Virus record (IMG/VR): IMGVR_UViG_3300047558_000119
Span: 1 to 43,447 of that record
Source: a virus
Length of the DNA: 43,447 nt
Strand: one strand, 5' to 3'
Below, in pieces: positions 10,065 through 38,919 of this stretch. The notes below the pieces were generated by a model that was given only the letters and a program-made list of their open reading frames with translations, ran no database searches and was not told the origin of the DNA. Position 1 is the first letter of the stretch, and the number at the start of each line of letters is the position of its first letter. The translations under genes were made by a program, and so were the position numbers.

Positions 10065-10367
10065 ATGCTCGAAACCGAGGTGGCAGTCATGCTCCACCGA
10101 AGCAGGGGATTCGTTCGCAAGCTACGCCAGTCTGGTGAGCTGCAATGGATTCCAGGCGCTGGCCGTGCGCCACTTCTGATTTCACGCGAGTCCGTACAGC
10201 AATACATTGAAAGGAATATGAGATGGCACGCAAAGCGCTCCCACCTAGACTTACAGAAAACGGTGGCGTCTGGTACGTCACGTACTCAGATGGAGGTCGC
10301 TCGCAAAGAGCGAGCCTTCGGACAGGAGATTTACAAGTCGCGCAAGAGAGGTTTCAGGGCTGGCTGA
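10065..10367 (+). CDS. Excisionase-like HTH protein overlapping integrase
   Basis: A 100-residue protein from ATG 10065; a TTG-started frame from 10026 is less likely. Residues 1-50 (ETEVAVMLHRSRGFVRKLRQ, then LISRESVQQYIERN) match the small winged-helix fold of excisionases and AlpA-type regulators. The frame then continues for another 48 codons inside the integrase gene in a different frame and ends in a basic tail. The position between repressor and integrase supports an Xis or integrase-control role. Confidence 0.65.
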   Translation: MLETEVAVMLHRSRGFVRKLRQSGELQWIPGAGRAPLLISRESVQQYIERNMRWHAKRSHLDLQKTVASGTSRTQMEVARKERAFGQEIYKSRKRGFRAG

Positions 10368-11275
10368 AAGCACGCACTGAGGACGAGGTATCACGTGACC
10401 CACAAACATTTGCCGCCGCATGCCGCATGTACTTGGAGCAACACGGTCCTACGGTGTCTTCGCCTGACACGCTTGAGCATGTTTTAAAGTGTCTGATTGT
10501 CCGATTTGGCGACCGTACTCTGTCGCAAATCACACGCGCTGACATTGAGCGATTCACCAAGGAGCGCCTGGAGGGTACGTTTGAAGGCCGACGTGCTGTG
10601 TCCAATGGCACGGTGCGCAAAGAGTTGGGCATCATGCGTGCAGTGTTCAACTTCATGGTGAAGAAGGTCGAGCCGAAGGAGCTGCGCGTCACCAGCAAGG
10701 ACTTGTCATACATACCGTTGCCGCCCAAGCCACCGGCACGCAACCGAGTGCTCAGCGCTGCCGAGCTGGACATGATTCGGACAGAAGCCAAGCCGGTGGA
10801 GGGCGAGCGCATGAGCCGACTGAGCCGATACCTTTGGTTGCTCATGGAAACCGGCGCTCGCTCAGAGGCGCTTCGCTCGCTGACCTGGCCGCAGGTCGAC
10901 CTTGATGCTGGCCTGATTCGACTCAACCCATGGGGCCGAAACCAAACGACCAAGCGTAGGCCGACCATCCCAATCAGCGACGACCTGCTGCCCATCCTTA
11001 CGCTGGCCAAGAAAGAGGCGACTAACGAGTGGGTGCTGGACCACCGCGGGCAGATTCGCAAATCCATGGAGCGCTTCTGCGAGCGCAAGAAGTTGAGCGG
11101 CGTCACAGCTCACACATTTCGCCACACGCTGGCCACCAGGATGGCTCAAGCCGGTGTGTCGATGCCTGAGATTGCAGCCATGCTGGGTGACTCAATCGTC
11201 ACGGTGGAGAAGAACTACCTTCACTTGTCGCCACAGTACCTGCGTGGTGCGTTGGCCAAGCTCAAGGCAGCCTAA
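10223..11275 (+). CDS. int: Tyrosine integrase
   Basis: A 350-residue tyrosine recombinase. The N-terminal 55 residues look like an arm-binding domain (WYVTYSDGGRSQRASLRTGD), residues about 60-160 a SAM-like core-binding domain, and the C-terminal catalytic domain carries R213 (TGARSEALRSL), H297-x-x-R300 (HTFRHTLATRM) and the nucleophile Y332 (VEKNYLHL). It should recombine attP with a host attB, and with excisionase reverse this. It overlaps the excisionase-like gene by 145 bases, and its TAA overlaps the stop of the convergent gene. Confidence 0.93.
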   Translation: MARKALPPRLTENGGVWYVTYSDGGRSQRASLRTGDLQVAQERFQGWLKARTEDEVSRDPQTFAAACRMYLEQHGPTVSSPDTLEHVLKCLIVRFGDRTLSQITRADIERFTKERLEGTFEGRRAVSNGTVRKELGIMRAVFNFMVKKVEPKELRVTSKDLSYIPLPPKPPARNRVLSAAELDMIRTEAKPVEGERMSRLSRYLWLLMETGARSEALRSLTWPQVDLDAGLIRLNPWGRNQTTKRRPTIPISDDLLPILTLAKKEATNEWVLDHRGQIRKSMERFCERKKLSGVTAHTFRHTLATRMAQAGVSMPEIAAMLGDSIVTVEKNYLHLSPQYLRGALAKLKAA

Positions 11276-11703
11276 CCCTTCTTGGGTCTAAACGGGGTGG
11301 AGAGTGCGCGCTTCACGCTCCACCCGTTGTTGATTCTGTATTGGATGGACTGATAGCTTGCGCCCAGCTCATCGGCCCACGCCTGCAACGATTGCGTCTT
11401 ACCGTTGTGGGTCAAATTCCTGACCATGCCCCTTGGCTTCGGCTTCTTGGCCACTGCCACCACGGTCAGATGCTTCACCTTCTTTGGCGCGTCCTTGGCT
11501 CTTTCGTTGTTCAGCTGCACCAGGGCGCAGCCGCATGAGGTTGTCCTGCCAGCGCGCAGGTGCTGACCCATCACGATAGTCTCATTGCCACACCGGCATA
11601 AGCATTTCCAGGTAGCGTGCGCCGTCCTGTAACTGCCTTCGCGTGAGACAACCTGGAGTCGGCCAAACCATTGACCAGTCAGATCGAGTGCATGTCTTCC
11701 CAT
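11272..11703 (-). CDS. Zinc-ribbon/HTH DNA-binding phage protein
   Basis: A 143-residue basic protein. The N-terminal part has the WKCLCRCG...SCGC cysteine pattern (about residues 33-60) that in phages often precedes AP2 or HNH modules. The C-terminal part, SLQAWADELGASYQSIQYRI followed by NNGWSVKRALSTP, is an HTH-like repeat found in the same proteins. No HNH catalytic motif is seen, so it is more likely a regulator than an active homing nuclease, though a degenerate one is possible. Convergent with integrase; their stop codons overlap. Confidence 0.7.
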   Translation of the reverse strand: MGRHALDLTGQWFGRLQVVSREGSYRTAHATWKCLCRCGNETIVMGQHLRAGRTTSCGCALVQLNNERAKDAPKKVKHLTVVAVAKKPKPRGMVRNLTHNGKTQSLQAWADELGASYQSIQYRINNGWSVKRALSTPFRPKKG

Positions 11704-14319: not shown

Positions 14320-17300
14320 TCAGAACGTCCCTTGCTCGCCAGCCTTCTCGCCGGTCTTCTTTTGCTTGCTCTCTTTTTCGCCAGCCAGCCAGTCCTGGAG
14401 CTGGGCCTTGAATGCGGGTGACGACATATACATGTACGACGCACCCAGGCCAGCGCCCACCACTGGACCGCCAGGCAGGTAGCCAGTGGCGTAGGCCAGG
14501 CCAGGCTGAGCAATCAGCTCATAGACGCCACGCACTGCACCGCGCTCAGCTGAGTTGGTCTTCTCGCTGTTGAGCACGAAGAGCTTGGCGATGCGCTCGA
14601 TGGCTTGAAAGATGAATGAGCCAGTCGCACCGGCCAAGATGTTGGACAGGTCGCGCTGGTACTTCACACCCAGGAATGCGTTGTAGAGCGGGTCGGCCAA
14701 ACCAGTGAAGCCAGCGCGGCTGAATGCCAACGACGCCAGCCACTTGATGGGGAAGCCGCCTTCTTTTTTCTCTTCTTCGTCCCACTTCTCAGGGTTGAGC
14801 AAAGCCTCGCGAGCGACCGTCACCAACAGGTGGCCAAGGTACAGGCTGGCCAACGGAGCGATGACTTGTGTGGCGGCCACTTGAGCTGCGTATGCTTTGC
14901 CGCCGCGGTCGTACTCGCGGCCAACCTTTTTGAACGACTTGACTGCGACGTTGCGGAAGAACGCCATTGAGAACGACAGCAAGCCGTACACAAGGCGACC
15001 AACGCTGGTGTTGGATGCGTAGGGTCGGTCAATGGCTGTCGGGCTTTGGATGGCCTGGTTGACCAGGCGACCCACCATGACTGCATAGAGCTTGCCCATT
15101 TCAGTCAGGCTGCCGTCGACGTCGATCACCTCGTCGTGACGTGGCACGCGACCGGTGAACTCACGCGACCAATTCACAAAGTCCTGGAGCTGAGCGCCAC
15201 GCAAGCCAGCGTCGATCAGCTCGTCCTTGGCAAAGCCCTTGTCGCGTGCGCTGGCTGTGTCGTCGTCCAACACTTGAGCCAGCTCCATCACATAGCTGCC
15301 AGCCAGCTGCATGGACGCACGGCGCTGAGCGTTGGTCAAACCAGTCAGGCCGACTCGACGGAAGAAGTTGGCCGACGCACGGGTCATTGAGGATGACTCA
15401 GCGACAGTGCCACCCAAGCGGTTGGCGATCATCTCGTCAGCCAGGTCACCCGACACAATGCCAAGCACACGTGCCATGGCGCGTCGCTCGCGAACGCTGC
15501 CGCTCTTGCCGATTTCTTGGATGGTCAGGGCCAAGCCCTTGAACGCGTCCAGTGGCTTGCCAGTCTGCAAAGCCACTGTCATGGGTTCAGCCAACGACGT
15601 CAGCACCACGCGACCAAGCAAAGCCATTTGGCCAAGCCCGTGCACAAAGCCCAAAGTGCGGTTCAGCTCGTTTGGCAATTGCGAGCGGTCAGTGCCAGTC
15701 ACTTGACCAACGATCTTCTGCACCATCTCGCGGTCGTCCTTGCGCACACCGGCCTTCACCATGGTGTCCAACAAGCGATACAGCTTGGTGTTTGTTTCCT
15801 TGCTGTTGCGAGCGTCTTTGCCGAAGCGAGTGTTGTACTCAGACTTGCGCACCGACATTTGCACGTATGACGTGATGCGCTCGATTGGGTCTTGGATGTA
15901 ATACTTGGACAGAATCTTGTCCGCTTCTGGTGGCAGCGCACGACCCTTGAGGAATGAACCGGCAGGTGAGTGCGAGCTGAAATCAGTGGGCGAGCCGTAG
16001 CTGATTCGCACCTGGTATTCGGCTGCGGCTTTTGCTGACCACTCATCGCGAACCAAGTCGTAGGCCGCCTCAAAGACGTCACCGTTCTCGTCCAAGAACT
16101 CATTGATTGCTGCCTGTGCTTTGTCAGCCTTGTCTGCTGCGTCTTCCTCGGCAGCATTGGCTTGGTCAAGTGCACGCAACAGCTTGGCCAACTCTTTCTT
16201 GGCGGTGCGGTATTCACCCAAGCGTGGGTCGCCAACCATCTCAGCTTCTTTGATGCGCTTGTCCAGTGCGTCTAGTGCGACTGAAATGTCGTCAGCTTCC
16301 ATCGGGCGCTCGGTGTCGCGCTCAAAGACGATCTTGTAAACCTCAGTGGCGTCCTTCACGAACTCAGCGTCGTTGGCTGTCACCAGCGGCTCGTCGATCA
16401 GGCGTGGCAAGTAGCCCTGGTCCTTGACAAAACCAATATCCAGGCCAGCGTTGCGGTTGTAGTAGTAGACGTCGGTCATCAACTCACGCAGCGCTGCGGC
16501 CAGTTTGTTCAAGTCGGAACCAGCGGTGGCCGCCGCCTCGTTGCCGGTAGCTGTCAGCATGTCTGTGAGCTTGGCCAAGTCCTCGTCGCTCAACAGGTCG
16601 GCGTTGTGGTTGCCAGAGATGTTGGATAGGCGTGTCAGCAAGCGACGTGTCTCGCGCTCGACTGCCTCGGCATACGTGCCACCAGTGCCAGTCTCTTTGC
16701 CAGCGCCAGGGTTGGTTGCCAAACGCTCTGTCACTTGACGAATGGCTTTGGCCGCCGCCAGGTTGCCTTGCTTTTGGTAGTACGACTCCATGGACAGCAA
16801 GACGCCACGGTTTGTCTCAATGGCTGCACGCACGTAGTCGCCCATGCGTTTCATCAAAGGGCGGTCATCGTTGGGGCGCAGCGCCAGCTTTTCGTGCTCG
16901 CGCTGGCGGACGACCCATGCGCGCTTCTCAGCATCCCACATGGCACGGATGCCTGTCGACTGAGCGGACCGTTGTTGGTCGGCAAAGTAGACACTTGGGT
17001 CAGAAAGACGCACGTTGGTTGGCAGCGTGGCAGACAACTCGCCGTCGGGGTTGAGCAACGCCTGCTCGCGCATGGCATCAAACAACAAGTCGTAGGCGCG
17101 GAAAATGTTGAACCGGTCAGAGTCCTTGGGGAAAGTCTTGGCCAGGCGAATCTCTGCATCGTTGAGGTATGCAGCGTCACCTTTGCCAATGAACTCGGTT
17201 GAGCCACCGGCTGCTTCCACCTTGTGTGCGACGTAGGCTTCAAACGAGCGGGCCAACATCTCTGTTGGTTTGCGCCAATAGTTGGGGTCGCTGCCAGTCG

Positions 17301-20300
17301 TCTTAGCAAACTCACCGGCATTCTTGTAGAACTGGCTGCGGTCGTTGCGACTCTTTGATGCGCCAGCGATGATGCGCTCCAGGTCGGCTTTGAGCTTGGT
17401 GGTGTCTTGGCCCTTTTGCTCAGCTGCCTCGATCTTTCGCTCCAGGTCCATGATCTTGGCCGACTGCTCAGCCTGGTCAAAGAACATGGTGTTCATCAAC
17501 AGGCGGAATGAGTCACGCACGTTCTCTGGCATCTTGTCGCTGAACGACTCGCCGTCACGAACGTAGCCAGACAGCGTGTCGGTGATACCTTCCAACGACG
17601 TCAGCAAGTGGTAGTCAAGCGCGTGGCCCCATTCATGGGCAAACGAGTTTGAGCGACCAGGCATTGCGATGGTCGGAACTTGTGACTTGATGCCTTCGGT
17701 ATGGCCACCGCCACCAGTGCCCTGTGGAAAGTAAGCGCCCAAGAAGTCGCCCTGGCTGGTCATGGCCAAGCCAAGTGTGCCGCCCAAGCCAATGGCTGAG
17801 GTAGGCAGGTCCAGCACGTGAGTCATCAATTGCAGGCCGCGGTATGCGTCAAGCAACTGGTCGATGGAATCGCGGACGTTGGCCTTTTCGGACTTCTGCA
17901 CGAAGGCCAGGCCGTAAGTGTTTTTCAGGCCGTCGGCAAGAATCTTGAACTGACGGGCCGGTGGCAACAACTCAGCCTCGGCTGGGTCATAGCCTAGCTC
18001 GACGAAGGCGTCACGGTAGATGCTTTGGCGGTCGGTGAACGAGACTTTGCGGAATAAGGAGTCCTGGCCAGTGCCTTTGACGCGTTGGCTTTTTGCGGGG
18101 CCATCGTCTTGGCTGCCGCGCTGACGGCTCGGCGTGCTTGCGCCTTGGTCATTCCCGTCAGGTCCACCGGCTCGCTCATTTACATCACCGGATTCGGTTT
18201 GATCGGAGCTTCCTTGGCCTGCTTCGTTCGACGTGCGTCCCCGATCTGCGGTGTCGAGAAGTGGGCTTGTTGAGCTGCGACCTCCAAGCGTTTGCCCGAC
18301 GCGACGAACGAAGGGAGCGACCGCTGGTGGCCGACTTGCGTGAACGCCTTGCTCAGCGCTGCCATCGCTTGAGGGCTGGCTGGTCGCTTCGGCGTCGAAG
18401 AGGGTTCCATTGTCGGGTTTTCGATTTCGTTCATTGCGTTGCTCCACGGCTGAGCGGGTTAGCTCTTGGGGTGAGGGTGGCGAGCCTCCCAGCAAGTCCT
18501 CGGTGTCTTGGCGCTTGGCGAAGTCAACGTAGGCTTTGAGCACGTCGTTGATCGCGTCACGGCCAACGGCACGGGACAGGTCTTCATTGTAGAAGGCGCG
18601 TACAAATTCATCAACGATTGGGTTGCGCTCGCTCACCATGTCGTTTTGAGCAAGCCATTCCTGCACGCGGGACTTGTTTTGGCGCAGCTGGTCGACGGTG
18701 CGAGCCGCCGTCACCAGCTCTTGTGTCACGTCATAGCCGGATGAGATGACGCCTTCGCGTGCCATACGACGCATTTGCAGCCAGGCTGGGGCGCTGTCAA
18801 ACAAGGCGTTGCCGATTGACTTGATGTTGTCGTCGGTGCTGTCGATGAGCTTGGCCAGCAACTCACGGTCGTCGTATGCGGCGGCCAACAAGGCGCGACG
18901 GATGCGCGTCACGCCATCTGGCGAAACATTGCCGTAGTCGTCCAGCATGCCATTGCGCTGAGCCTGTGGTAGCTGACCAATGAATGCGCGAACGAAATCA
19001 CGGTTGGCTGCCGACGTAATGTCGCCACCGGTCCACACGTCGACCACGCTGTCCTTGAGCGCAGACACGTCGATCTTGGCGCGCTCCACTGGCGTGAGGT
19101 CCATGGTGGCTGACTGATTTGATTCTTGAACGAAAGCCACGCGCTCTTGAGGCGTCATGGGTGTGACGCGCTCACGCACCAACACCGGCTCGTTGATGCC
19201 GGTGGTGTCGTAGCCAAGGCTCTTGAGGTAGTCGCGGTACGCCTGAGCACGCTCAGGGAACATAGCGAAGGCGCGACGGATGGACTGCACGCGGCCATTG
19301 CCAGACTCAACAATCATGTCGGGGCCAATGATCGGAGCGCCACGGTCGGCTTCTGCTGACTGGCCAAGACGTTGTGGGTCGAGCTGGCTGGCGATGTTGT
19401 TGATCTGCTCGTCGCTGGCTGCACGTGAACGGTCACGTGGCTGCAAGTCACCGCTGGCAGGCTTCAACTCGCTGGCGTCAATGATGCGCATGCGGGTTTC
19501 AACCTGGCGACCAGTGACGGTCGACACGCGGTGGGTGTCGCCACCGCTTGGCGCAGGGGCCGCCTGGGGTGCGCTTGGCTCGGTTGAGCTAGAGGCGGGG
19601 GCGGGCTGTTCTTTGGGCTTGAAATTGGAGCGAACCAGCTCGTCGGCTTGCTCGGTGGTCAAAGGCTGAGCGCCAACGCCTTGCGGGTTGAACTGGTTGG
19701 CCAACGCATAGCCCTTCTGATTGAGCTTGCCTTCGCCGTCCAACATGCCGTTGGCAGTCAGCAACTCTTTGACGTCGCCGTCCTTCAAGTTGCCGTTCAT
19801 GGCGTCGGTCATGCCCATGTAGATGGCCACGGACGATGGCAGCTTTGCGCTTTCAGCCACCGGCTCTGGTGGTGGTGTCGATTCAGCTGGCGCTTGAGCG
19901 ACAGGAGGCTCAGGGTTTTGCACGTTCTGAGTCGGCTGAGTCTTGGGAATCAGGTCATCAAACGACACTGGAGCTGCTTGCAGCTGAGCGCGGTCAGGGC
20001 TGAGTGAGTCGACGGCAGCCTTGCGGGTTGCGTCTTGATTGAGCGCAACTTGCTCAATGTCGGCCTGAATTGCACGTGCCAGTGCTGAGCCTGGTGCAAC
20101 GACCGGCTCCACTTTGGACTGGTAGAACTCTTTGGCCAGGTCAATACTCTTTGCGCCACCAGCCATACCGCCTGAAATCAACAGGGTTTGCATGAACTGC
20201 TTGCGGAATGCGTCGGCCACGCTCATCTCTTCATTGCTGAGTCCGGCCTGCATTTCGGCCTTGTTCTGGCCGACAGCTGTGATGGTTTCGGTGGCTTGCT

Positions 20301-21270
20301 CAGAAGCCAGCGAGCCAGCCTTTTGCGTCAGCTCAGTCAGGCGTGCGCCCTTGGCAGCACGTGCTGGGGCTGAGAATGCTTTGAGGAAAAGCGCATTGCT
20401 GACGGCTTCTGGAATTGCCTCCCAAGCGCCGTACTTGACGGCTGCTGAGTCAAAGTCTTTAAGGGCTTTGCTCCACTCTTGTTCGGTCAGCTCGCTGCCG
20501 TAGAGCTTTTTGGCCTGAGTGTTCAGGTTGTCGCGCACGCGGCCAAGAAATTCGTCTTTGCTGGCGCGGTAGCTCACCGTGCCGGATGCGGCCATACCAG
20601 CGCCAACGCCCACAGCTGGGTTGGCTGTCGCGGTTGTTGCCGCCGCCCCAGCGATGGCTGAGGTAACCATGGTGGTAAGGCTGTAACCCAACGACTCACC
20701 GAATCCAGTCAGCCCTTCGTAGTTGGGGTCTACCTTTTTCTTCGGAGCTGACGTCGCCGTGATGGCGCGGTCCAGCATGCCGTCGTCAGTCGCACCCATA
20801 TTGCCGCCACGGATGGCGCGCAAGGCGGTGTTGGCAGCCGCAGCTGGTACGCGTGGCAGGTCGTTGGCCACCACAGCGGCAGCTTCTGGCACGGCCTGAG
20901 TCAGTGGTCGACCTTCGGGGTTGAACATTGGTCGATTGCCGCCAGCGTCGCGATACACCTGGTCAACGGATGAGCCACGCTCGGCAGCGATACGACGTGC
21001 GGCCAGCTCGTTGGCTGAGCGAGCACGGTTGCCACCAAGTCCCAAGAACTCGGCAGCGCGCTCAACGAGCGTAGGCTCGTATGGGCGCATCTCAGGTCCA
21101 TTGAGAACAGTACCAGTAGCCGCCCCGCCAACTGGTCCCGATTCTTCCGCAGCCGCAGGAGTGGCCGACGCGGTGGCCTGGGGCGGAGCTGCTGGAATTA
21201 GGTCGTCAAAACTGACTCCGGCAGGGGCTTGCTTCTGTTTTGGAATCAGGTCGTCAAAATTGACTGTCAT
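14320..21270 (-). CDS. Giant polyvalent virion protein with ParB-like and metallopeptidase domains
   Basis: A 2316-residue protein, the largest in the phage. The N-terminus is Ala/Pro-rich with two FDDLIP motifs (residues 5-10 and 21-26) and a third near 437. Residues about 600-760 contain GAPIIGPDMIVESGNGRVQS, a DdrB/ParB-like nuclease-fold domain. SFAHEWGHALDYH carries HEWGH at 1212-1216, a zincin metallopeptidase motif found in large polyvalent phage proteins. Long helical regions follow, with a C-terminal part resembling LPD-type domains. It is probably packaged with DNA and injected, like T7 gp16 or DarB-type proteins; no lytic transglycosylase motif was found. Confidence 0.85.
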   Translation of the reverse strand: MTVNFDDLIPKQKQAPAGVSFDDLIPAAPPQATASATPAAAEESGPVGGAATGTVLNGPEMRPYEPTLVERAAEFLGLGGNRARSANELAARRIAAERGSSVDQVYRDAGGNRPMFNPEGRPLTQAVPEAAAVVANDLPRVPAAAANTALRAIRGGNMGATDDGMLDRAITATSAPKKKVDPNYEGLTGFGESLGYSLTTMVTSAIAGAAATTATANPAVGVGAGMAASGTVSYRASKDEFLGRVRDNLNTQAKKLYGSELTEQEWSKALKDFDSAAVKYGAWEAIPEAVSNALFLKAFSAPARAAKGARLTELTQKAGSLASEQATETITAVGQNKAEMQAGLSNEEMSVADAFRKQFMQTLLISGGMAGGAKSIDLAKEFYQSKVEPVVAPGSALARAIQADIEQVALNQDATRKAAVDSLSPDRAQLQAAPVSFDDLIPKTQPTQNVQNPEPPVAQAPAESTPPPEPVAESAKLPSSVAIYMGMTDAMNGNLKDGDVKELLTANGMLDGEGKLNQKGYALANQFNPQGVGAQPLTTEQADELVRSNFKPKEQPAPASSSTEPSAPQAAPAPSGGDTHRVSTVTGRQVETRMRIIDASELKPASGDLQPRDRSRAASDEQINNIASQLDPQRLGQSAEADRGAPIIGPDMIVESGNGRVQSIRRAFAMFPERAQAYRDYLKSLGYDTTGINEPVLVRERVTPMTPQERVAFVQESNQSATMDLTPVERAKIDVSALKDSVVDVWTGGDITSAANRDFVRAFIGQLPQAQRNGMLDDYGNVSPDGVTRIRRALLAAAYDDRELLAKLIDSTDDNIKSIGNALFDSAPAWLQMRRMAREGVISSGYDVTQELVTAARTVDQLRQNKSRVQEWLAQNDMVSERNPIVDEFVRAFYNEDLSRAVGRDAINDVLKAYVDFAKRQDTEDLLGGSPPSPQELTRSAVEQRNERNRKPDNGTLFDAEATSQPSSDGSAEQGVHASRPPAVAPFVRRVGQTLGGRSSTSPLLDTADRGRTSNEAGQGSSDQTESGDVNERAGGPDGNDQGASTPSRQRGSQDDGPAKSQRVKGTGQDSLFRKVSFTDRQSIYRDAFVELGYDPAEAELLPPARQFKILADGLKNTYGLAFVQKSEKANVRDSIDQLLDAYRGLQLMTHVLDLPTSAIGLGGTLGLAMTSQGDFLGAYFPQGTGGGGHTEGIKSQVPTIAMPGRSNSFAHEWGHALDYHLLTSLEGITDTLSGYVRDGESFSDKMPENVRDSFRLLMNTMFFDQAEQSAKIMDLERKIEAAEQKGQDTTKLKADLERIIAGASKSRNDRSQFYKNAGEFAKTTGSDPNYWRKPTEMLARSFEAYVAHKVEAAGGSTEFIGKGDAAYLNDAEIRLAKTFPKDSDRFNIFRAYDLLFDAMREQALLNPDGELSATLPTNVRLSDPSVYFADQQRSAQSTGIRAMWDAEKRAWVVRQREHEKLALRPNDDRPLMKRMGDYVRAAIETNRGVLLSMESYYQKQGNLAAAKAIRQVTERLATNPGAGKETGTGGTYAEAVERETRRLLTRLSNISGNHNADLLSDEDLAKLTDMLTATGNEAAATAGSDLNKLAAALRELMTDVYYYNRNAGLDIGFVKDQGYLPRLIDEPLVTANDAEFVKDATEVYKIVFERDTERPMEADDISVALDALDKRIKEAEMVGDPRLGEYRTAKKELAKLLRALDQANAAEEDAADKADKAQAAINEFLDENGDVFEAAYDLVRDEWSAKAAAEYQVRISYGSPTDFSSHSPAGSFLKGRALPPEADKILSKYYIQDPIERITSYVQMSVRKSEYNTRFGKDARNSKETNTKLYRLLDTMVKAGVRKDDREMVQKIVGQVTGTDRSQLPNELNRTLGFVHGLGQMALLGRVVLTSLAEPMTVALQTGKPLDAFKGLALTIQEIGKSGSVRERRAMARVLGIVSGDLADEMIANRLGGTVAESSSMTRASANFFRRVGLTGLTNAQRRASMQLAGSYVMELAQVLDDDTASARDKGFAKDELIDAGLRGAQLQDFVNWSREFTGRVPRHDEVIDVDGSLTEMGKLYAVMVGRLVNQAIQSPTAIDRPYASNTSVGRLVYGLLSFSMAFFRNVAVKSFKKVGREYDRGGKAYAAQVAATQVIAPLASLYLGHLLVTVAREALLNPEKWDEEEKKEGGFPIKWLASLAFSRAGFTGLADPLYNAFLGVKYQRDLSNILAGATGSFIFQAIERIAKLFVLNSEKTNSAERGAVRGVYELIAQPGLAYATGYLPGGPVVGAGLGASYMYMSSPAFKAQLQDWLAGEKESKQKKTGEKAGEQGTF

Positions 21271-24088: not shown

Positions 24089-24964
24089 TTATTTCTCCTG
24101 TCCAATTTGCAAAGTTAGTGAAAGCGCTTGGCGGTAGTCGATGGTGATTTCCTCACCGTCATGTCCGCCGCGGCATCCTGTGATGTGTTTTGTTGCGACG
24201 AGATATGCGTCGTCACCAACTCGCACCAGCTTTGCATTGGGTGATGCTGAGTGATTTGTGTATCGTCCTGCTATGGTTTGCTTGCCGTAGATGCGCGCTG
24301 GCGCAATGGCTTCACCTGACTCGATACCAGCCGTGGCAAACAAGCCTTTACCTTCGATGCGTGATGCGGCAACCTTGATCTTGTAGCCACCGCCTGGTAG
24401 TTCTGCCACGTCGTCGCTCACCATGAGCGAGCCGTCAGTGACGCCGACCTCTTGAAGCACCTTGCGGTAGTCCGACTGGTCGACTTCGTTCATGAGCAAA
24501 GCCACTTTCCCGTCCAAGTGCTGGCCAAAGTATTGGCTCTTGGTGATGAACGTGTCCTCTAGCTTTGTGACGTCTTGCTCTGTGGTTGCGTAGACGTTGA
24601 GCCACACCATGTCTTCATGGATGTAACCGATCTTGCGTCCTGGCTTGCCGACAAACAGAGCTGGTGCGACAACTTCGCTTGTACTGCCATCGTCGTTGAG
24701 CATGGTGACGCGGCCCTTGAGCATGATGTTGGTGTGCTCAAAGTTTTGATGGTGGCCAACGGCCAACGTGCCAGCTGGAATCATCAACTCGCGGATATAG
24801 ACGCCAGGTCCATAGCGGTGGATGACAGAGCATTCAACTTGCTGCTCGCTGAGCATGAATTGCTCAATGCGCTCTACGTCGCGACCAAACTCTTGGGCGA
24901 GCTGGAGCAACGACGCTTCGCCGCTGGGCGTAGTGAGTGCGTTGATTGGGGTCAGCTCGGCCAT
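24089..24964 (-). CDS. Cupin-SET fusion, putative protein lysine methyltransferase
   Basis: A 291-residue protein from ATG 24964; a GTG at 25021 would add 19 residues. Residues about 45-130 form a cupin: GHHQNFEH (H71, H72, E76, H77) and KPGRKIGYIHEDMVWLNVY match the two cupin motifs. Residues 196-281 form a SET-type domain: SRIEGKGLFATAGIESGE, then RYTNHSASPNAKL (N237, H238) and DGEEITIDYRQ (Y277), the cofactor-binding and catalytic-tyrosine motifs of SET methyltransferases. It lies between the nozzle and internal virion genes. Substrate unknown; virion or host proteins are possible. A degenerate, structural SET fold cannot be excluded. Confidence 0.8.
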   Translation of the reverse strand: MAELTPINALTTPSGEASLLQLAQEFGRDVERIEQFMLSEQQVECSVIHRYGPGVYIRELMIPAGTLAVGHHQNFEHTNIMLKGRVTMLNDDGSTSEVVAPALFVGKPGRKIGYIHEDMVWLNVYATTEQDVTKLEDTFITKSQYFGQHLDGKVALLMNEVDQSDYRKVLQEVGVTDGSLMVSDDVAELPGGGYKIKVAASRIEGKGLFATAGIESGEAIAPARIYGKQTIAGRYTNHSASPNAKLVRVGDDAYLVATKHITGCRGGHDGEEITIDYRQALSLTLQIGQEK

Positions 24965-25056: not shown

Positions 25057-27138
25057 TTAACCAGCTTCGCCGTCCCGTGGTGGGTCGTAGTGGACCAACA
25101 ACGAGCCAATCTTGGCGTAGCCATCGTTCAAGCTGGTCAGCCGGAATGCGATGTGGGTGCTATACGCCTGGAATGCCACGTTGCCGACGCCAAAGGTGTT
25201 TTCAGCAATCCGCGCAATTTCTTGTCGCAATGACGTGTCCGTGGGGTCGGTGGCAATCTCCACCTTCCACTCGCCCTCGCAAGCCATGTCGATGCCCTGA
25301 AACATTTTCAAGGTGGCTGGCTTGCCAGCGCTGACGTAGGGAATGAATGCCTCGACCTCGGTGTCGTCGTAGGTCCGGCCATTCTCACCGCCAAGCAAAT
25401 ACAGGTTGTTGTCTGCGCCTCGGCAGTACAACTTGCGACCAATGATGGCCCAATCAGTCACGGCAAACCCTGGGTCGTACAAAGACCAGGCCGATACGTG
25501 CGACGCTGGGAAATACGAGAAGACATAGACCTTGCTGCCCATGGCCAACAGGTATCGGCCATCGCGTGGTTCTAGCACAGCACGGCTTTCACGAGCTGTC
25601 AGGCGGTCGGCATTGACGTCGGCCAGGACCATGGGGTCAATTGGGTTGCCAATGTCCGTGGCAAAGGCTGCGTTTGACGCGTCGCGGGCACGGATGGAAC
25701 GAATGCCTGACTCAGACAGGTAGAACACGTCGCTGTCACCAATCTCCTGCACAGAGCGTGGGGCAATCGCACCGGTGTTGTTCAAAACCTGGAGTTGCTG
25801 GTTGCCGGACGCGGTGACGTCCACAAACCAGATTTGCACGGTTCGCTCAGAGAAGAAGGCTAAGTTGCTTTGGTAGTTGGCAATCGACGTCAGGCGCTCA
25901 GAGCCTTCGGCGTTGGTCGACAGGTTGATGAAGCCAGCGCCCTTGACGGACTCATTCGACTCAAGTGGAGCCTCAATGCCAGAGAAGTGCACCAAGCTGC
26001 CGGACGTCGTGTAAACCTTACTCTTTGCAGGCTTGCCGTACTCGCCAGGCAGGTAGGTTTCAGAGCCAGCTGGGCTTGTCGTCAGGTTTGCGCCGTTGGC
26101 CAGGGCCACGGACGCCACGTTGGTTGTGACGTTGCCAGTCTTGGTGATGGTCAGCGTCTTGCCGTTGTTGGCCGTGCCAGCCAATTGAATGATGACGTTG
26201 ACCTTGTTGCCAACAGCCATGGCGCGATAGTCAGGGCTACTTGAGTAATCGTTGATGGCGGCAGCGATGGCCGCCGCTGTGGTGGCGTTGTCGCCCGTAT
26301 GGTCGATTTGAGCGCCAATGATCTTGATGCCATCCACAACCAGGTTGGTGATGGCGTTATCCACACCGCTCGCAAAGTTACTCACAGAGCCGATAGTGAA
26401 GCTGCCGGTCACGTTGGCCACCAGAGCCAGCCCGTTGAACTTTGTGCCAGGCGTGACTGCTGTGATCGTCACGACAGCGCCCACGGCCACCGCGGTGAAG
26501 TCGGGGTTGCCGACAAACGAGTTGATGGCTGCCGCGATGCGAGCTGCCGTTGATGTGTTGCTGCCGTCGTGCTGCACGGCTTGAGTCATGATGGCGTATG
26601 TGCCAGCACGAATGCTGGTCATGCGGTCGCCAGTTGAGTTGATACCGCCAGTCACGGTGAAGCTGGCCGTCGCACTTGTGCCGCCAGCCGTACCGCCTGT
26701 AATCGTAAACGACGCACGCGCGCGCGCCTCAACAAACTCTGTGTGGCGCGTGCCGTTGTAGAAGTGGTAGATCGCGCCGTCGTCGAATTGAGCAATCACG
26801 TATGGCAAACCAGAGAATGCGCTGACGTGAAGAACCTTGGCCAGCGCTGCGCCTGTTGGCGACACCAGCTGCTGGTAAATCAGGTTGGATGGCGCGCCGG
26901 ACGGGATGGTGACTGACGCCACCGAGCCAAAGGTGTAGAGCGTTCCGCCCACCGCAGCCAGGCCAAACGTATTTGCAGGGAATGCAGCCTGGTTGACAAA
27001 GGCCAGTCGCTTCTCGATTTCTCCGCCGCGATTGATGTGGCCATTGACCAGGTTCAAAAGCGAACCAGGGACCGACAACACCGGCATGCGCCGTGTGTCC
27101 ATCCCTGAGCGAAAGTCCTCGATTTGAAAGTACGGCAT
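25057..27138 (-). CDS. Tail nozzle protein (T7 gp12-like tail tubular B)
   Basis: A 693-residue strand-rich protein. The start MPYFQIEDFRSGMDTRRMPV and NLVNGHINRGGEIEKRLAF are typical of gp12-type nozzle proteins. Residues about 140-350 hold two Gly/Thr/Ala-rich inserted repeats (each with a TAARIAAAINS / TTAAAIAAAINDY segment), then a beta-propeller-like C-terminal region (RSVQEIGDSDVFYLSESGIR). It forms the distal tube that closes the tail and opens at ejection. It follows the adaptor gene by three bases. Confidence 0.82.
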   Translation of the reverse strand: MPYFQIEDFRSGMDTRRMPVLSVPGSLLNLVNGHINRGGEIEKRLAFVNQAAFPANTFGLAAVGGTLYTFGSVASVTIPSGAPSNLIYQQLVSPTGAALAKVLHVSAFSGLPYVIAQFDDGAIYHFYNGTRHTEFVEARARASFTITGGTAGGTSATASFTVTGGINSTGDRMTSIRAGTYAIMTQAVQHDGSNTSTAARIAAAINSFVGNPDFTAVAVGAVVTITAVTPGTKFNGLALVANVTGSFTIGSVSNFASGVDNAITNLVVDGIKIIGAQIDHTGDNATTAAAIAAAINDYSSSPDYRAMAVGNKVNVIIQLAGTANNGKTLTITKTGNVTTNVASVALANGANLTTSPAGSETYLPGEYGKPAKSKVYTTSGSLVHFSGIEAPLESNESVKGAGFINLSTNAEGSERLTSIANYQSNLAFFSERTVQIWFVDVTASGNQQLQVLNNTGAIAPRSVQEIGDSDVFYLSESGIRSIRARDASNAAFATDIGNPIDPMVLADVNADRLTARESRAVLEPRDGRYLLAMGSKVYVFSYFPASHVSAWSLYDPGFAVTDWAIIGRKLYCRGADNNLYLLGGENGRTYDDTEVEAFIPYVSAGKPATLKMFQGIDMACEGEWKVEIATDPTDTSLRQEIARIAENTFGVGNVAFQAYSTHIAFRLTSLNDGYAKIGSLLVHYDPPRDGEAG

Positions 27139-27141
27139 GGC

Positions 27142-27852
27142 TTATGGCTGTGGCTGAACTGCAATGATCTTTGGGCCTTGAGGCATGAGTCCTTGAGGCT
27201 CGCCGGAAAGGGTGAACACGTCGTTCTTGGACGTGCGGCCCTTGAGGGTTAGCAGGTGCTTTTCAGCCAGCTTCAACTTGATGCCAGCGTCAGCGCCTTT
27301 CTCACGGGCTAGGATTTCTGCTGCGGTGAACAACACCAGCAAGGTGTCATCCAGGTCAGCGCGGTCGGACTCAGCCACCAGGGGTCGCAACTTGCGAATG
27401 CCCCAAATGCGCAACACGATGTTGGGCGGGCTGGTTGTGCCGTTTGAGCTGGGGATGGGCCACAGCTCGATTTGATCGTTCTCGTACTCTTGCCAGCGCT
27501 GGGTTGGGATGGCGCGAATGTCGCGGTCCGAGTCGTACTGGTCGTACTGAGGTTGGCCAATGCCGTAGTCGACGGGAACCCAACGGTTGCCGTACTTGAA
27601 TTCGATTTTCTCGATGCGCTCCAACGTCAAGTCGTTGGGCAAGTCGTAGTAGCGTTGGCCAGCGTTGAGCACAATGTCGCGGTGCACGCGCAAGAATTTC
27701 CAATCGTGGTCTTCCCACAGTCGGCGCTGCTGGCGCTGCAACGCTTTGACGAGGACGTCGCGCATGGCGACGCCCAAACTGGCCTGCAACGAATGCCCAG
27801 CTTCTGCTCGCACATCGTCGATCAATTCACCCAGGGTTACGTTGCGGGCCAT
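27142..27852 (-). CDS. Head-tail adaptor (T7 gp11-like tail tubular A)
   Basis: A 236-residue protein. MARNVTLGELIDDVRAEAGH at the N-terminus, then LVKALQRQQRRLWEDHDWKF and NAGQRYYDLP, match gp11-type adaptors (tail tubular protein A). DLDDTLLVLFTAAEILARE near the C-terminus is also typical. The product binds the portal and receives the nozzle protein encoded next. A ribosome site (TAGGGAGC) precedes ATG 27852. Confidence 0.82.
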   Translation of the reverse strand: MARNVTLGELIDDVRAEAGHSLQASLGVAMRDVLVKALQRQQRRLWEDHDWKFLRVHRDIVLNAGQRYYDLPNDLTLERIEKIEFKYGNRWVPVDYGIGQPQYDQYDSDRDIRAIPTQRWQEYENDQIELWPIPSSNGTTSPPNIVLRIWGIRKLRPLVAESDRADLDDTLLVLFTAAEILAREKGADAGIKLKLAEKHLLTLKGRTSKNDVFTLSGEPQGLMPQGPKIIAVQPQP

Positions 27853-35121: not shown

Positions 35122-36129
35122 TTATGCTGTAAACGTGCCAGACGTTGTGAATGTGTGGACCCAATATGTTGTTGGCCCAGATGTGTAAGAAGTTACAGTG
35201 CCGCCTGAGCCTCTTTGAGTGGCGCTCGCATATCGAACAATTACAACTCCAGAGCCTCCGGAGCCAGCAGTTCCATCTCGACCACAACCTCCGCCACCGC
35301 CGGTGTTGGCTGTTCCATTACCTCCGCCAGCAGAACCACCTCCGCCTGACCCAGCTGTTCCAGCTTGTGAAGGGGATTGTGTTGCTGGTGCTCCGCCACC
35401 GCCGCGAGTAATAGATGTTCCTGTAATTGAAGAACTTACTCCACTACCACCAAACTGCAATGAAGTAGGACTGGTCGCACTACCTCCAGCAGAACCCGCA
35501 CCACCACCACCACCACCAGCGTTATTTCCGGATTGGTCCCAGCCAGCTCCGCCCGCATATCCTTGCCCAGATGTTCCAGCGCCTCCATTTATTGAGACAC
35601 CACCAGTATCTCCATCACCACTGCCGCCACCGCCAGAGCCGCCAGGTTTACCGTCTTTTCCGTCTAGCGCGATAGTCACGCCACCGCGTCCACCGCCAAT
35701 AGAAGTTACTAAAGTTCCGAATGCAGAGTTGTTGCCGTTTCCTGGCGCTGTAACAGTGGATGTTCCTCCCACCCCTCCTGCTCCAACAGTAATTGGGAAT
35801 GAAGTACCAGCAGTAACAAACAATGCAGATTCAGCAGACGAGCCGCCGCCAGATGTTCCAGCTGACGTTCTATATCCACCAGCTCCACCGCCAGAATAAC
35901 GATGACCGCCTCCACCCCCACCAGCAATAACTAGAAAATCTAAAGCATAGGTTTGCTGAAAGTTAGTAGACCAAGCCGCGCCGTTGTAATACTCCATCGC
36001 GTTCAGCGTAGAGTTCCAACGCTGTTCACCAACAGCAGGCGACGCTGGCCGCTCAGCAGTTGTCCCAGCTGGAATGCCAATCACGCTGTCTTTTTTGACC
36101 ATGTTGGCCAGGTTTCTTGCTCTGCTCAT
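35122..36129 (-). CDS. Polyglycine tail fibre or adhesin (short)
   Basis: A 335-residue protein. The first 60 residues are a linker-like head (KKDSVIGIPAGTTAERPASP); then LDFLVIAGGGGGGHRYSGGG starts a glycine-rich domain of about 230 residues ending in SGVVIVRYA and HTFTTSGTFTA. Such domains resemble polyglycine sandwich tips of phage adhesins. It is paralogous to the C-terminal domain of the long fibre upstream. Likely receptor-binding role. Confidence 0.7.
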   Translation of the reverse strand: MSRARNLANMVKKDSVIGIPAGTTAERPASPAVGEQRWNSTLNAMEYYNGAAWSTNFQQTYALDFLVIAGGGGGGHRYSGGGAGGYRTSAGTSGGGSSAESALFVTAGTSFPITVGAGGVGGTSTVTAPGNGNNSAFGTLVTSIGGGRGGVTIALDGKDGKPGGSGGGGSGDGDTGGVSINGGAGTSGQGYAGGAGWDQSGNNAGGGGGGAGSAGGSATSPTSLQFGGSGVSSSITGTSITRGGGGAPATQSPSQAGTAGSGGGGSAGGGNGTANTGGGGGCGRDGTAGSGGSGVVIVRYASATQRGSGGTVTSYTSGPTTYWVHTFTTSGTFTA

Positions 36130-36138
36130 GTCAGTTCC

Positions 36139-38919
36139 TTATGCCGTGAATGTGCCGCTGGATGTGAAGGTGTGGTACGTATAGCCGCCAGAGCTGGTCA
36201 CTGTGCCGCCTGTCCCGCGTTGAACACCTGGGTAGCGAATGATTACGACGCCAGAGCCGCCGTTTGCTCCGTTTGCTGAGCCGCCGGAGCCGCCGCCACC
36301 TCCACCAGTATTGGCTGTGCCTGCTGTGCCTGATGTGTTCAAGCCGCCGTTGCCACCACCACCAGCACCTCCAGTACCTCCTGCTGAACCGCTGGGGTGC
36401 GCTCCACCGCCACCGCCACCAGCGTAGTAGGTTCCAAGTGATTGCCAGTTTGCGCCAATGCCACCATTGCCGCCAGCAAGGCCACCGTTTGAGCCTGCTG
36501 CGCCTGCCCCGCCGCCACCGCCACCTGTATATGATGGAGAGCCGCTGTTGCCAGCGCCGCCGTTATTTCCCTGACCGGAAGTTCCAGAACCACCAGCGGC
36601 TGTGTAGTAGGCGCCTGATCCGCCGCCAGACCCACCGTTGCCGCCAATCACGCCAGATGCTGACGTACCTCGACCGCCATTACCGCCTCCAGTTGCGGTT
36701 GTGGTGTTGAAAACAGAGTTACTGCCAACCCCGCCAGGGGCGCTAGTGGTTGAGCCTGAGCCGCCAGCACCAACGGTGACGGTATAAGCTGAAAGTGGAA
36801 TCATGTTTGCAGATGACGCAATGTAACCACCTGCGCCACCTCCACCAGAGCCTTCTGAGCCTCCACCGTTTGCAGTGCCACCGCCGCCAGCGACAACTAA
36901 AAACTCAACAAGGTAGTTGAGGCTTGAAACTGCCGCCCAAGCGCCACTGTAGTAAACCTCGGTTTGCTGAGTGGTTGTGTTGACTCGAAAGTCGCCGTTT
37001 TGAGGTGATGCTGGACGCTGTGCTGTAGTTCCGACTGGAATTGTCGCAGCACCAGTCGCAGAGTCTTTACGCACATAACGCGCATCAGCGTCAGTCTTGC
37101 TGTAATGATCTGCCAGCACAAACGTGCCAAACGCCACGATGTTCAGCTCGTCACCAGCGGCAGCGGCGGAAGCAAGAACAATCGAAGTGCCGGACGATGC
37201 TGTGAAGTCAGTCGAATCAAGACGCACGCCGTTGAGGTACACATCAACGTAGCCAGCGTCATACGCCAGGGTGAAACCGTTGCTGTCAGCGCCGGTAAAC
37301 GTGGTTTGCGCAGCAGTGGCAATGTAGCGGTAGCGACGCGATGTGCCGTTCACCGAAGAACCAGCAGCGGTCCAACCAGACGAGCCATACACCTGCATGG
37401 CGTTGGTCGTCGTGTTGAAGTACAGAGCGCCAATCAGCAACGCGTTGCCGTCGTTGTCGAGTGTGGGGGCGCTGGCCTTTGGACCCAAGTAGCGATCGTC
37501 AAACGAGTCATACGACGCAGCAGCCGCGGCAGCCGAAGCAGCAGCGCTGGTGGCCGATGTAGACGCGTTTGTCGCTTGTGTCGTGGCCGTAGTGGCCGAA
37601 GTCGACGCAGAAGATGCCGAGCTGGCAGCAGCAGTGGCTGACGTCGCAGCCGAGGTGGCTGAGGACGCAGCATTCGTTGCCGAAGTGTTGGCCGACGTCG
37701 CGGAGGCAGAAGCATTGGATGCTTGCTGCGTTGCAGTTGTGGCAGCGTTCGTCGCTGTCGTGGCCGAGTTGGTGGCCGAAGTGGCCGAAGATGAAGCCGA
37801 TGTGGACGAAGAGCCAGCGCTGGTGGCCGAAGCAGCAGCGTTGTTGGCAGCCGTTGTCGCGTCGCTGGCCTTTTGTGTGGCAGTGGTTGCGGACGTTGCA
37901 GCAGATGTAGCCGAAGTCGCAGCGCTGGTGGCAGAGGTCGCAGCCTCAGATGCCTTTGTCGTTGCTGTCGTTGCTTGCGTAGTAGCAGTCGATGCCGACG
38001 CCGCAGCGTTGGTTGCCGATGTGGCAGCAGCTGTTTGCGATGTGCTGGCAGCGCTGGCGCTTGAAGCAGCAGCAGTGGCAGAACCAGCAGCAGCTGTCTG
38101 TGAAGTCGATGCAGCTGACTGTGATGCGGCAGCAGCAGTGGCACTCGATGCAGCAGCAGTTTGCGAGGCAGCCGCAGCAGTCTGAGATGCAGCCGCAGCG
38201 TTTTTGCTTGTCAGCGCAGCAGCTGCATAGCCTTGAGCGTCAGCAGCGCTGGTCGTTGCCAAGTCAGCAGCCAGCTGAGCCTCAACACCAGTACCACGCA
38301 CCATGATGTTCTTGCGGCCAGCGACAGAAGGCGCGGGTGGGGCAGTCACAAAGGTCAGCGTTGTGCCGACGATGGTGAAGTCCTGCGTTGGAATCTGAGC
38401 AACACCAGCAACAAAAACAGTCGCAGCGTTTGAGCCTGCGTAGTTGTACGACAGGGTGAAAGCAGTTTGCGATGCGTTGCCAGAGAACGTGTCGACAGCT
38501 TGTCCACCACCTTGCAAAGCACCGTTTGCAATTAGCAGCCAGTAGCCAGCAGAGTTGTCGGTAGCAAACGACGCAGTGGACGTATTGGCAACCAGGCACA
38601 AATACGTTGCGTCGTTGTAGTTCACCAGGTCGCCAACAGCGTAGGCCGTCGATGCAGCCCAATTGCCACGCGGGTTGTACTCGCCTTGGGAGATGATGGC
38701 CAGCGTTGCAGCAGACAAAGATTCTGGTGTCACCAGCTGATTGACTAGCTTGCCGTCGTCGCGCTGCAACAGCGCCAGGTTGGTGAGAGTTTCATCAAGC
38801 GTCAGCTCGACAGCGTTCAACTCAGCATCAAGATTGGTAGCAGGCAGCGGCTTTGTAGGGTTCACTGTCTGGTAGTCAGTGAAGTTATACAGCCGCGTGT
38901 ATTGGGTTGGTTGAGACAT
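36139..38919 (-). CDS. Long tail fibre with T7-type head, Ala-rich shaft and polyglycine tip
   Basis: A 926-residue protein. The N-terminus (MSQPTQYTRLYNFTDYQTVN) resembles a fibre base that docks to the tail; a YAVGDLVNYNDATYLC carbohydrate-binding-like module follows at about 120. Residues about 235-470 are an Ala/Ser/Thr repeat shaft. A strand domain (AAQTTFTGADSNGFTLAYDA) and a C-terminal glycine-rich tip (about 673-926) ending in YHTFTSSGTFTA complete it. It should bind the host receptor. Confidence 0.78.
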   Translation of the reverse strand: MSQPTQYTRLYNFTDYQTVNPTKPLPATNLDAELNAVELTLDETLTNLALLQRDDGKLVNQLVTPESLSAATLAIISQGEYNPRGNWAASTAYAVGDLVNYNDATYLCLVANTSTASFATDNSAGYWLLIANGALQGGGQAVDTFSGNASQTAFTLSYNYAGSNAATVFVAGVAQIPTQDFTIVGTTLTFVTAPPAPSVAGRKNIMVRGTGVEAQLAADLATTSAADAQGYAAAALTSKNAAAASQTAAAASQTAAASSATAAAASQSAASTSQTAAAGSATAAASSASAASTSQTAAATSATNAAASASTATTQATTATTKASEAATSATSAATSATSAATSATTATQKASDATTAANNAAASATSAGSSSTSASSSATSATNSATTATNAATTATQQASNASASATSANTSATNAASSATSAATSATAAASSASSASTSATTATTQATNASTSATSAAASAAAAAASYDSFDDRYLGPKASAPTLDNDGNALLIGALYFNTTTNAMQVYGSSGWTAAGSSVNGTSRRYRYIATAAQTTFTGADSNGFTLAYDAGYVDVYLNGVRLDSTDFTASSGTSIVLASAAAAGDELNIVAFGTFVLADHYSKTDADARYVRKDSATGAATIPVGTTAQRPASPQNGDFRVNTTTQQTEVYYSGAWAAVSSLNYLVEFLVVAGGGGTANGGGSEGSGGGGAGGYIASSANMIPLSAYTVTVGAGGSGSTTSAPGGVGSNSVFNTTTATGGGNGGRGTSASGVIGGNGGSGGGSGAYYTAAGGSGTSGQGNNGGAGNSGSPSYTGGGGGGAGAAGSNGGLAGGNGGIGANWQSLGTYYAGGGGGGAHPSGSAGGTGGAGGGGNGGLNTSGTAGTANTGGGGGGSGGSANGANGGSGVVIIRYPGVQRGTGGTVTSSGGYTYHTFTSSGTFTA
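37520..38220 (-). repeat. Ala/Ser/Thr-rich shaft repeats within the tail fibre gene
   Basis: Dense degenerate repeats built from units such as AATSATSAA and ASQTAAAASQ, encoded by GCN/ACN/TCN triplets. Both strands stay open through this stretch, which creates long false reading frames on the plus strand. The repeats fit a trimeric coiled-coil shaft and could change length by recombination. Confidence 0.7.

Follow-up and report, generated by a model that had tools for sequence, protein, structure and literature searches.

The window analysed here is the whole 43,447-nucleotide stretch of the IMG/VR virus record IMGVR_UViG_3300047558_000119. On its minus strand, downstream of the nozzle gene and ahead of the ejection genes, lies an open-reading frame that is uninterrupted over 291 codons, opposite a plus strand rich in stops, and which we refer to as cupin-SET. 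The gene, its domains and its neighbours are located as follows, from upstream to downstream:

27142..27852 (-), adaptor protein (SU10_adaptor; Pfam E 2.4e-13)
25057..27138 (-), nozzle or packaged-DNA-stabilisation protein (P22 gp10-type), 693 aa, the upstream neighbour, assigned by tblastn and position
24089..24964 (-), cupin-SET gene, 291 aa plus stop, with homologues found
24530..24877 (-), cupin (RmlC-like) domain, residues about 30-145, assigned by AF2 and Foldseek, PHROG 12032/24280 and alignments
24113..24403 (-), minimal SET domain, residues about 188-284, assigned by Pfam SET and PDB profile matches
24344..24352 (-), SAM-binding G-x-G (G205-K206-G207); G205 in 114 and G207 in 115 of 115 rows
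24251..24256 (-), N237-H238 of the RY-T-NHS motif; N in 114 and H in 113 of 115 rows
24155..24178 (-), lineage-specific insertion G-C-x-G-G-x-x-G, residues 263-270, directly N-terminal of GEExxxDY
24134..24136 (-), catalytic-position tyrosine Y277, in 114 of 115 rows; the exception stops at a contig end
23357..24088 (-), probable first ejection (internal virion) protein, 243 aa, the downstream neighbour, assigned by position

A preliminary description of this DNA had placed a cupin and a SET domain in one 291-residue protein, near nozzle and internal virion genes. Both statements are borne out, as the reading frame is intact, Pfam recognises SET as the sole family in the protein, the AlphaFold2 model (54-row alignment, pLDDT 88.6, pTM 0.85) has two confident domains, Foldseek recovers both folds, and the gene has the nozzle gene on one side and the ejection genes on the other. 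PHROG 34170 (unknown function) spans residues 27-284 with an E-value of 3.3e-78, and a search of NCBIfam with the protein gave no match. In tblastn the nozzle matched Rhizobium phage RHph_N65 and, in Microcystis phage Mae-Yong1326-1, the protein named “packaged DNA stabilization protein”. The 243-aa protein matches the profile of the phrog_598 “DNA ejection” family weakly, which does no more than suggest homology, and it is retained downstream of the same interval in same-backbone relatives. The TAA stop of cupin-SET abuts the ATG of this ejection-protein gene and an AGGAG lies inside cupin-SET just 5' of that ATG, so the two genes are probably co-translated. A promoter belonging to cupin-SET itself, raised as a possibility at the outset, was rejected, the one weak site in two registers (2 found, 1.2 +/- 1.3 expected) being at chance level.

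The window protein matches Pfam SET (PF00856) at 26.0 bits, above the cut-off of 22.4 (E 1.3e-5), SET is matched in 16 of 16 scanned relatives (best E 3.3e-8), and GKGLFAT (residues 205-211), N237-H238 and Y277 in GEEITIDY lie exactly where they had first been read. We aligned 115 SET rows, made up of a main set of 77 proteins (the window protein and 76 non-identical relatives) and a more distant clade. The key sites of the signature (GxG, R-x-x-N-H-S and GEExxxDY) are kept in 113-115 of these rows, with N237, H238 and Y277 retained in 114, 113 and 114, and G205, G207, N237, H238 and E272 are invariant across the 77. Two outcomes named beforehand as fatal to the reading, a profile search without SET and homologues devoid of N237, H238 and Y277, thus did not occur. 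Foldseek against the PDB returned the SET domains of MLL1 and SET8 for the C-terminal domain (about 1e-4), whilst a profile built from six phage SET domains matched MLL/KMT2 SET at about 1e-6 and PBCV-1 vSET (1n3j) at 1.1e-4. The MLL-type profile alignment pairs the NHS and GEExxxDY blocks and skips about 35 MLL1 residues, which argues that the SET-I insert is missing; this insert, common in the SET family without defining it, has no counterpart in cupin-SET, and in other SET enzymes it contributes to the substrate groove. The G-C-x-G-G-x-x-G insertion is present in 76 of the 77 proteins of the main, freshwater-type clade and missing from the PH1-like clade, in which the spacing of the SET motifs is conventional. 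Judged from sequence, the SET domain looks complete, with its catalytic signature intact, and methyltransferase activity is predicted.

The N-terminal domain belongs to the cupin superfamily because of its fold and not its metal site. Its top Foldseek matches in the PDB are cupins (TM1459, RPA4178 and others, probability 1.00, E about 1e-5), the double-stranded beta-helix of the superfamily is present, and PHROG 12032/24280 (“short tail fiber”/“tail fiber adhesin”) match the N-terminal half of the protein. Pfam Cupin_2 matches just 6 of 16 scanned relatives, with a best E-value of 0.084. Both cupin motifs had been described as readable; the cupin fold stood, but the motifs are degenerate and the canonical ligands (three His and one Glu in motifs 1 and 2) are not conserved in the alignments, the corresponding positions being H71/Q73/H77 in the window clade (manual alignment against TM1459) and R/H/H or Q/Y/H in other clades, with a variable motif-2 His. 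With so clear a fold and such variable ligand positions, the cupin probably serves in binding or docking, not as a standard metallo-cupin. A JmjC-type Fe(II)/2OG demethylase cupin, which would form a writer/eraser pair with the SET domain, was considered and rejected, there being no HxD/E...H triad (H71-x-Q73, second His unconserved). Median dN/dS was 0.10 for the cupin and 0.11 for the SET domain across 259 non-independent pairs, values that indicate purifying selection on both and argue that the SET part is not decaying.

Annotated relatives run from the adaptor to gp10/nozzle (stabilisation protein), then to cupin(-SET), in some cases with a small gene in between, and on to the DNA-ejection protein. 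Cupin-SET was compared at 94 loci of other phages, where it is mostly 46-60% identical and better conserved than its neighbours; essentially none of the neighbour genes of the window is detectable at these loci, so the cupin-SET gene itself is the thing kept or exchanged. Most of the 94 carry a P26218-type gp10 and ejection protein, and the window carries an SU10-type capsid and adaptor. On the other backbones cupin-SET again follows gp10/nozzle and precedes the ejection gene in most loci, and this constant place on different backbones argues that the gene moves between virion backbones and keeps its position.

The remainder of the window holds several further genes. A phage integrase is encoded at 10223-11275 (+), and the phage is probably temperate. 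A 143-aa open-reading frame at 11272-11703 (-) has separate halves that match two different HNH endonuclease PHROGs. Two fibre-like proteins (35122-36129 and 36139-38919, both on the minus strand) each carry a Gly_rich_2 domain, the 926-aa one with an additional chitin/cellulose-type CBM_5_12 module. A 2316-aa polyvalent protein with ddrB-like ParB and LPD1 domains (14320-21270, minus strand) lies a few genes downstream of cupin-SET; giant polyvalent phage proteins are a class proposed to enter the cell with the injected DNA.

Across 50,697 phage records the cupin was found in 55 and the SET part in 8, namely zth2-2, Rhodoferax P26218 (two accessions), Pseudoalteromonas PH1 (two accessions) and three from Manatee Spring. 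The family is common in IMG/VR, which yielded at least 582 stretches when searched with the whole protein and at least 487 when searched with its SET part, counts that are not dereplicated. The initial view that such domains are rare in phages is accordingly right for sequenced isolates but not for environmental phages. Bacterial genome assemblies yielded six cupin-SET loci, all in MAGs (labelled Methylophaga, Paraburkholderia, Lentisphaera, Methylococcaceae, Burkholderiales and Anaerolineae), and the relatives on plasmids are all cupin-only and carried by phage-like plasmids. No stand-alone SET gene of this family was found, the few SET-only reading frames being contig ends or the split frame of one locus (L116:247-1158), where the cupin-SET gene lies in pieces in different frames, through sequencing error or real decay. 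Outside the slot, a lone reading frame of ~100 aa, gp27 of Pelagibacter phage Kolga (L193:3959-4267), has weak SET similarity (E 0.1) and is a possible independent phage SET gene.

SET-bearing proteins form two separate groups in the cupin tree, one large and mainly environmental, the other PH1-like and branching from within the cupin-only proteins of Vibrio and Shewanella phages. A single origin of the fusion was tried and set aside, as the tree, which is unrooted, calls for three changes (the L116 split among them) and fits two gains or one gain plus losses. In the PH1-like group the SET domain is placed between the post-cupin helices and a C-terminal tail, GDLCQE, that also ends the cupin-only X14 protein, which argues that an existing tail protein either gained SET by insertion or lost it precisely. 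We found no study of the cupin-SET fusion in the literature on SET and phages; a crAss “SET domain” paper concerns a C2-set immunoglobulin fold and a phiSH19 match is an I-set domain.

The slot between the nozzle and the first ejection gene is exchangeable in same-backbone relatives, an observation which is new here. Thirty-five contigs had a window-type nozzle and capsid and a readable interval from nozzle to first ejection gene, and this interval held cupin-SET in 2, a cupin only in 7, a gp13-like protein in 16 and neither in 10 (a longer ejection protein without a separate gene in 5, empty in 4 and unassigned in 1). The gp13-like slot proteins are 157-178 aa long and match PHROG 308 “internal virion protein” at 1.4e-33 and 6.8e-37 in the closest backbone, more weakly in others, and match Pfam Phage_T7_Gp13 weakly (E 0.0074 and 0.042). 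The model of one of them (pLDDT 81.9) had GNAT acetyltransferases as all of its top 50 PDB matches, and depositors labelled the equivalent gene “N-acetyltransferase” in Mae-Yong1326-1, beside a nozzle related to that of the window, and “acetyltransferase” in epsilon15. The gp13-like alignment contains no obvious copy of the acetyl-CoA motif R/Q-x-x-G-x-G/A, and with a motif that looks degenerate, acetyltransferase activity of these proteins is unsure. The gp13 and cupin profiles never match the same locus (21 vs 228 in a non-random sample of 249 loci), and the gp13 profile search of the 43 kb window gave no match, the cupin being the only one of the two present.

Two other arrangements were seen. 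Rhizobium phage RHph_N65 (L288:5004-5919) carries a gp13-like gene and, in tandem with it in the slot, another GNAT N-acyltransferase of more canonical type. Four same-backbone contigs (L221:7202-8401, L222, L225 and L284) have no slot gene and an ejection protein with an in-frame extra N-terminus of about 160-200 aa, as if the slot function had moved into the ejection protein.

T7 gene order places gene 13 in the interval from the nozzle (T7 gp12 / P22 gp10 type) to the first ejection gene, and in the T7-like phage SnaP-R1 a cupin lies immediately after tail tubular protein B; together with the slot occupants, this argues that the slot is the T7 gene 13 position. What is found here is known domains in a new combination and an exchangeable slot. 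The comparison favours a role for cupin-SET in virion assembly or the ejection module, and suggests that podoviruses exchange one protein-modifying fold for another within the machinery that builds the virion.

Known systems resemble cupin-SET in part. MLL/KMT2 SET domains are its best profile and structural SET matches in the PDB, with the GxG, N-H and E-x-x-x-D-Y blocks aligned, but cupin-SET lacks about 35 SET-I residues and pre/post-SET and stands in a phage context. The podophage cupin “short tail fiber” proteins of VvAW1, BA3, X14 and SnaP-R1 (phrog_12032/24280) have a homologous cupin in the same slot, yet stop after the cupin and a helical tail, without SET. T7 gp13/phrog_308 (GNAT fold) is found in this slot in phages whose capsid, adaptor and nozzle are those of the window, and also has the fold of a group-transfer enzyme, but the fold and sequence are unrelated, acetyltransferase-like and with a catalytic motif that looks degenerate. 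Three phage proteins already bear a SET name: A0A6J5PTS6 (263 aa) of an uncultured Caudovirales and ct1fd225, which match cupin-SET by fold or sequence, and ORF62 of Stenotrophomonas phage Ps15, likened to it by label alone. For these three we found labels only, and no account of a cupin fusion, a slot or a mechanism.

We tentatively propose, at somewhat short of an even chance, that cupin-SET is a SAM-dependent protein-lysine methyltransferase, docked through its cupin to the assembling tail or ejection module, which modifies a phage virion protein. The minimal SET domain, linked to the barrel of the cupin, would be a SAM-dependent protein methyltransferase, most likely of lysine; the cupin would most likely attach it to the tail/ejection module, its presumed role also in the many podophages where SET is missing; and the SET domain would methylate a virion protein of the same operon, whether an ejection protein or the nozzle, while the virion assembles, after which cupin-SET may stay in the virion. 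Cupin-SET would, on this scheme, be the enzyme version of the function of the slot. The conserved SET signature, low dN/dS and confirmed fold are consistent with this, as are the fixed position, the stop codon abutting the start of the ejection gene and the slot exchange with gp13-like proteins. Methyl-lysine on phage proteins was first reported in 2026, from infected cells and free virions of Cellulophaga phages, and the lysine-methylated phage proteins in free virions were mostly structural (PMC13288928). Those phages have no known methyltransferases, however, so host enzymes can also methylate phage proteins (PMC13288928). Further points weigh against our proposal: the gp13-like occupants are maybe non-catalytic, in which case the common job of the slot could be structural, cupin-only versions function without SET, which makes methylation dispensable to the basic role of the slot, and the groove-building SET-I (about 35 residues) is missing.

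The main rival, which we consider unlikely, is that cupin-SET travels in the virion alongside the ejection proteins, is delivered into the cell and there methylates a host protein at an early stage of infection, in the manner of vSET (A612L; PDB 1n3j), a virus-packaged SET enzyme used by chlorovirus PBCV-1 on host histone (PMC7019647). This precedent keeps the rival alive, and vSET is likewise a small viral SET, matched over the NHS-to-GEE block, but it is a stand-alone, algal-virus-encoded enzyme with histone H3 as substrate, whereas cupin-SET is fused to a cupin, lies in the tail operon of a bacterial podophage, has the GCxGG insertion and meets a host without histone. An injected effector would suit a gene of the ejection-protein operon whose slot is elsewhere filled by proteins annotated “internal virion protein”, with a giant polyvalent protein of the proposed injected class a few genes downstream, and host protein methylation does increase early in phage infection (PMC13288928). 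Yet the literature yielded no virion proteomics for any cupin-SET phage, Pfam names T7 gp13 a “probable scaffold protein” and not an effector, and the phages and prophage-bearing assemblies that have the fusion are assigned to very different bacteria, so that a widely shared host target would be needed.

It is quite improbable, in our assessment, that the protein is structural or faces the receptor, as a short tail fibre, adhesin or tail plug in which the cupin does the work and SET is a non-catalytic, beta-rich module. The PHROG names on the cupin part and the many phages with a cupin alone at this position would fit such a role, but SAM-binding and catalytic residues are strictly kept across two deeply separate clades, which is unexpected for a dead module, and a receptor tip should vary fast, whilst cupin-SET has a dN/dS of about 0.1 and is better conserved than its neighbours. 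No experimental support was found for the fibre labels, as is stated for Ralstonia phage phiAP1 (PMC8703784).

Least probable, and very unlikely, is a metabolic or counter-defence enzyme riding in the virion operon and acting on a non-lysine substrate or on a small-molecule ligand of the cupin itself: cupins are often small-molecule enzymes and the slot tolerates unrelated folds or none, but the cupin metal ligands are unconserved, the position ahead of the ejection gene is kept in most loci across backbones, and to our knowledge known SET enzymes act on protein lysines.

There is a wider conjecture, which we rate as rather doubtful: the podophage slot may be dedicated to virion modification and filled alternatively by cupin-SET or a GNAT-fold gp13, each acting on virion proteins of one shared class to allow their packaging or ejection, and cupin-SET would be the first enzyme of virion-protein methylation found to be encoded by a phage. 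A widespread phage-encoded SET domain in a tail/ejection operon is a direct candidate for the writer of virion methyl marks, and one that is open to a knock-out. Databases describe the T7 gp13 family solely as “internal virion protein” or “probable scaffold protein”, and the occupants of the slot give a clue to its role: if a methyltransferase and a protein of acetyltransferase-like fold stand in for one another at this position, the job of the slot may be to modify virion proteins chemically.
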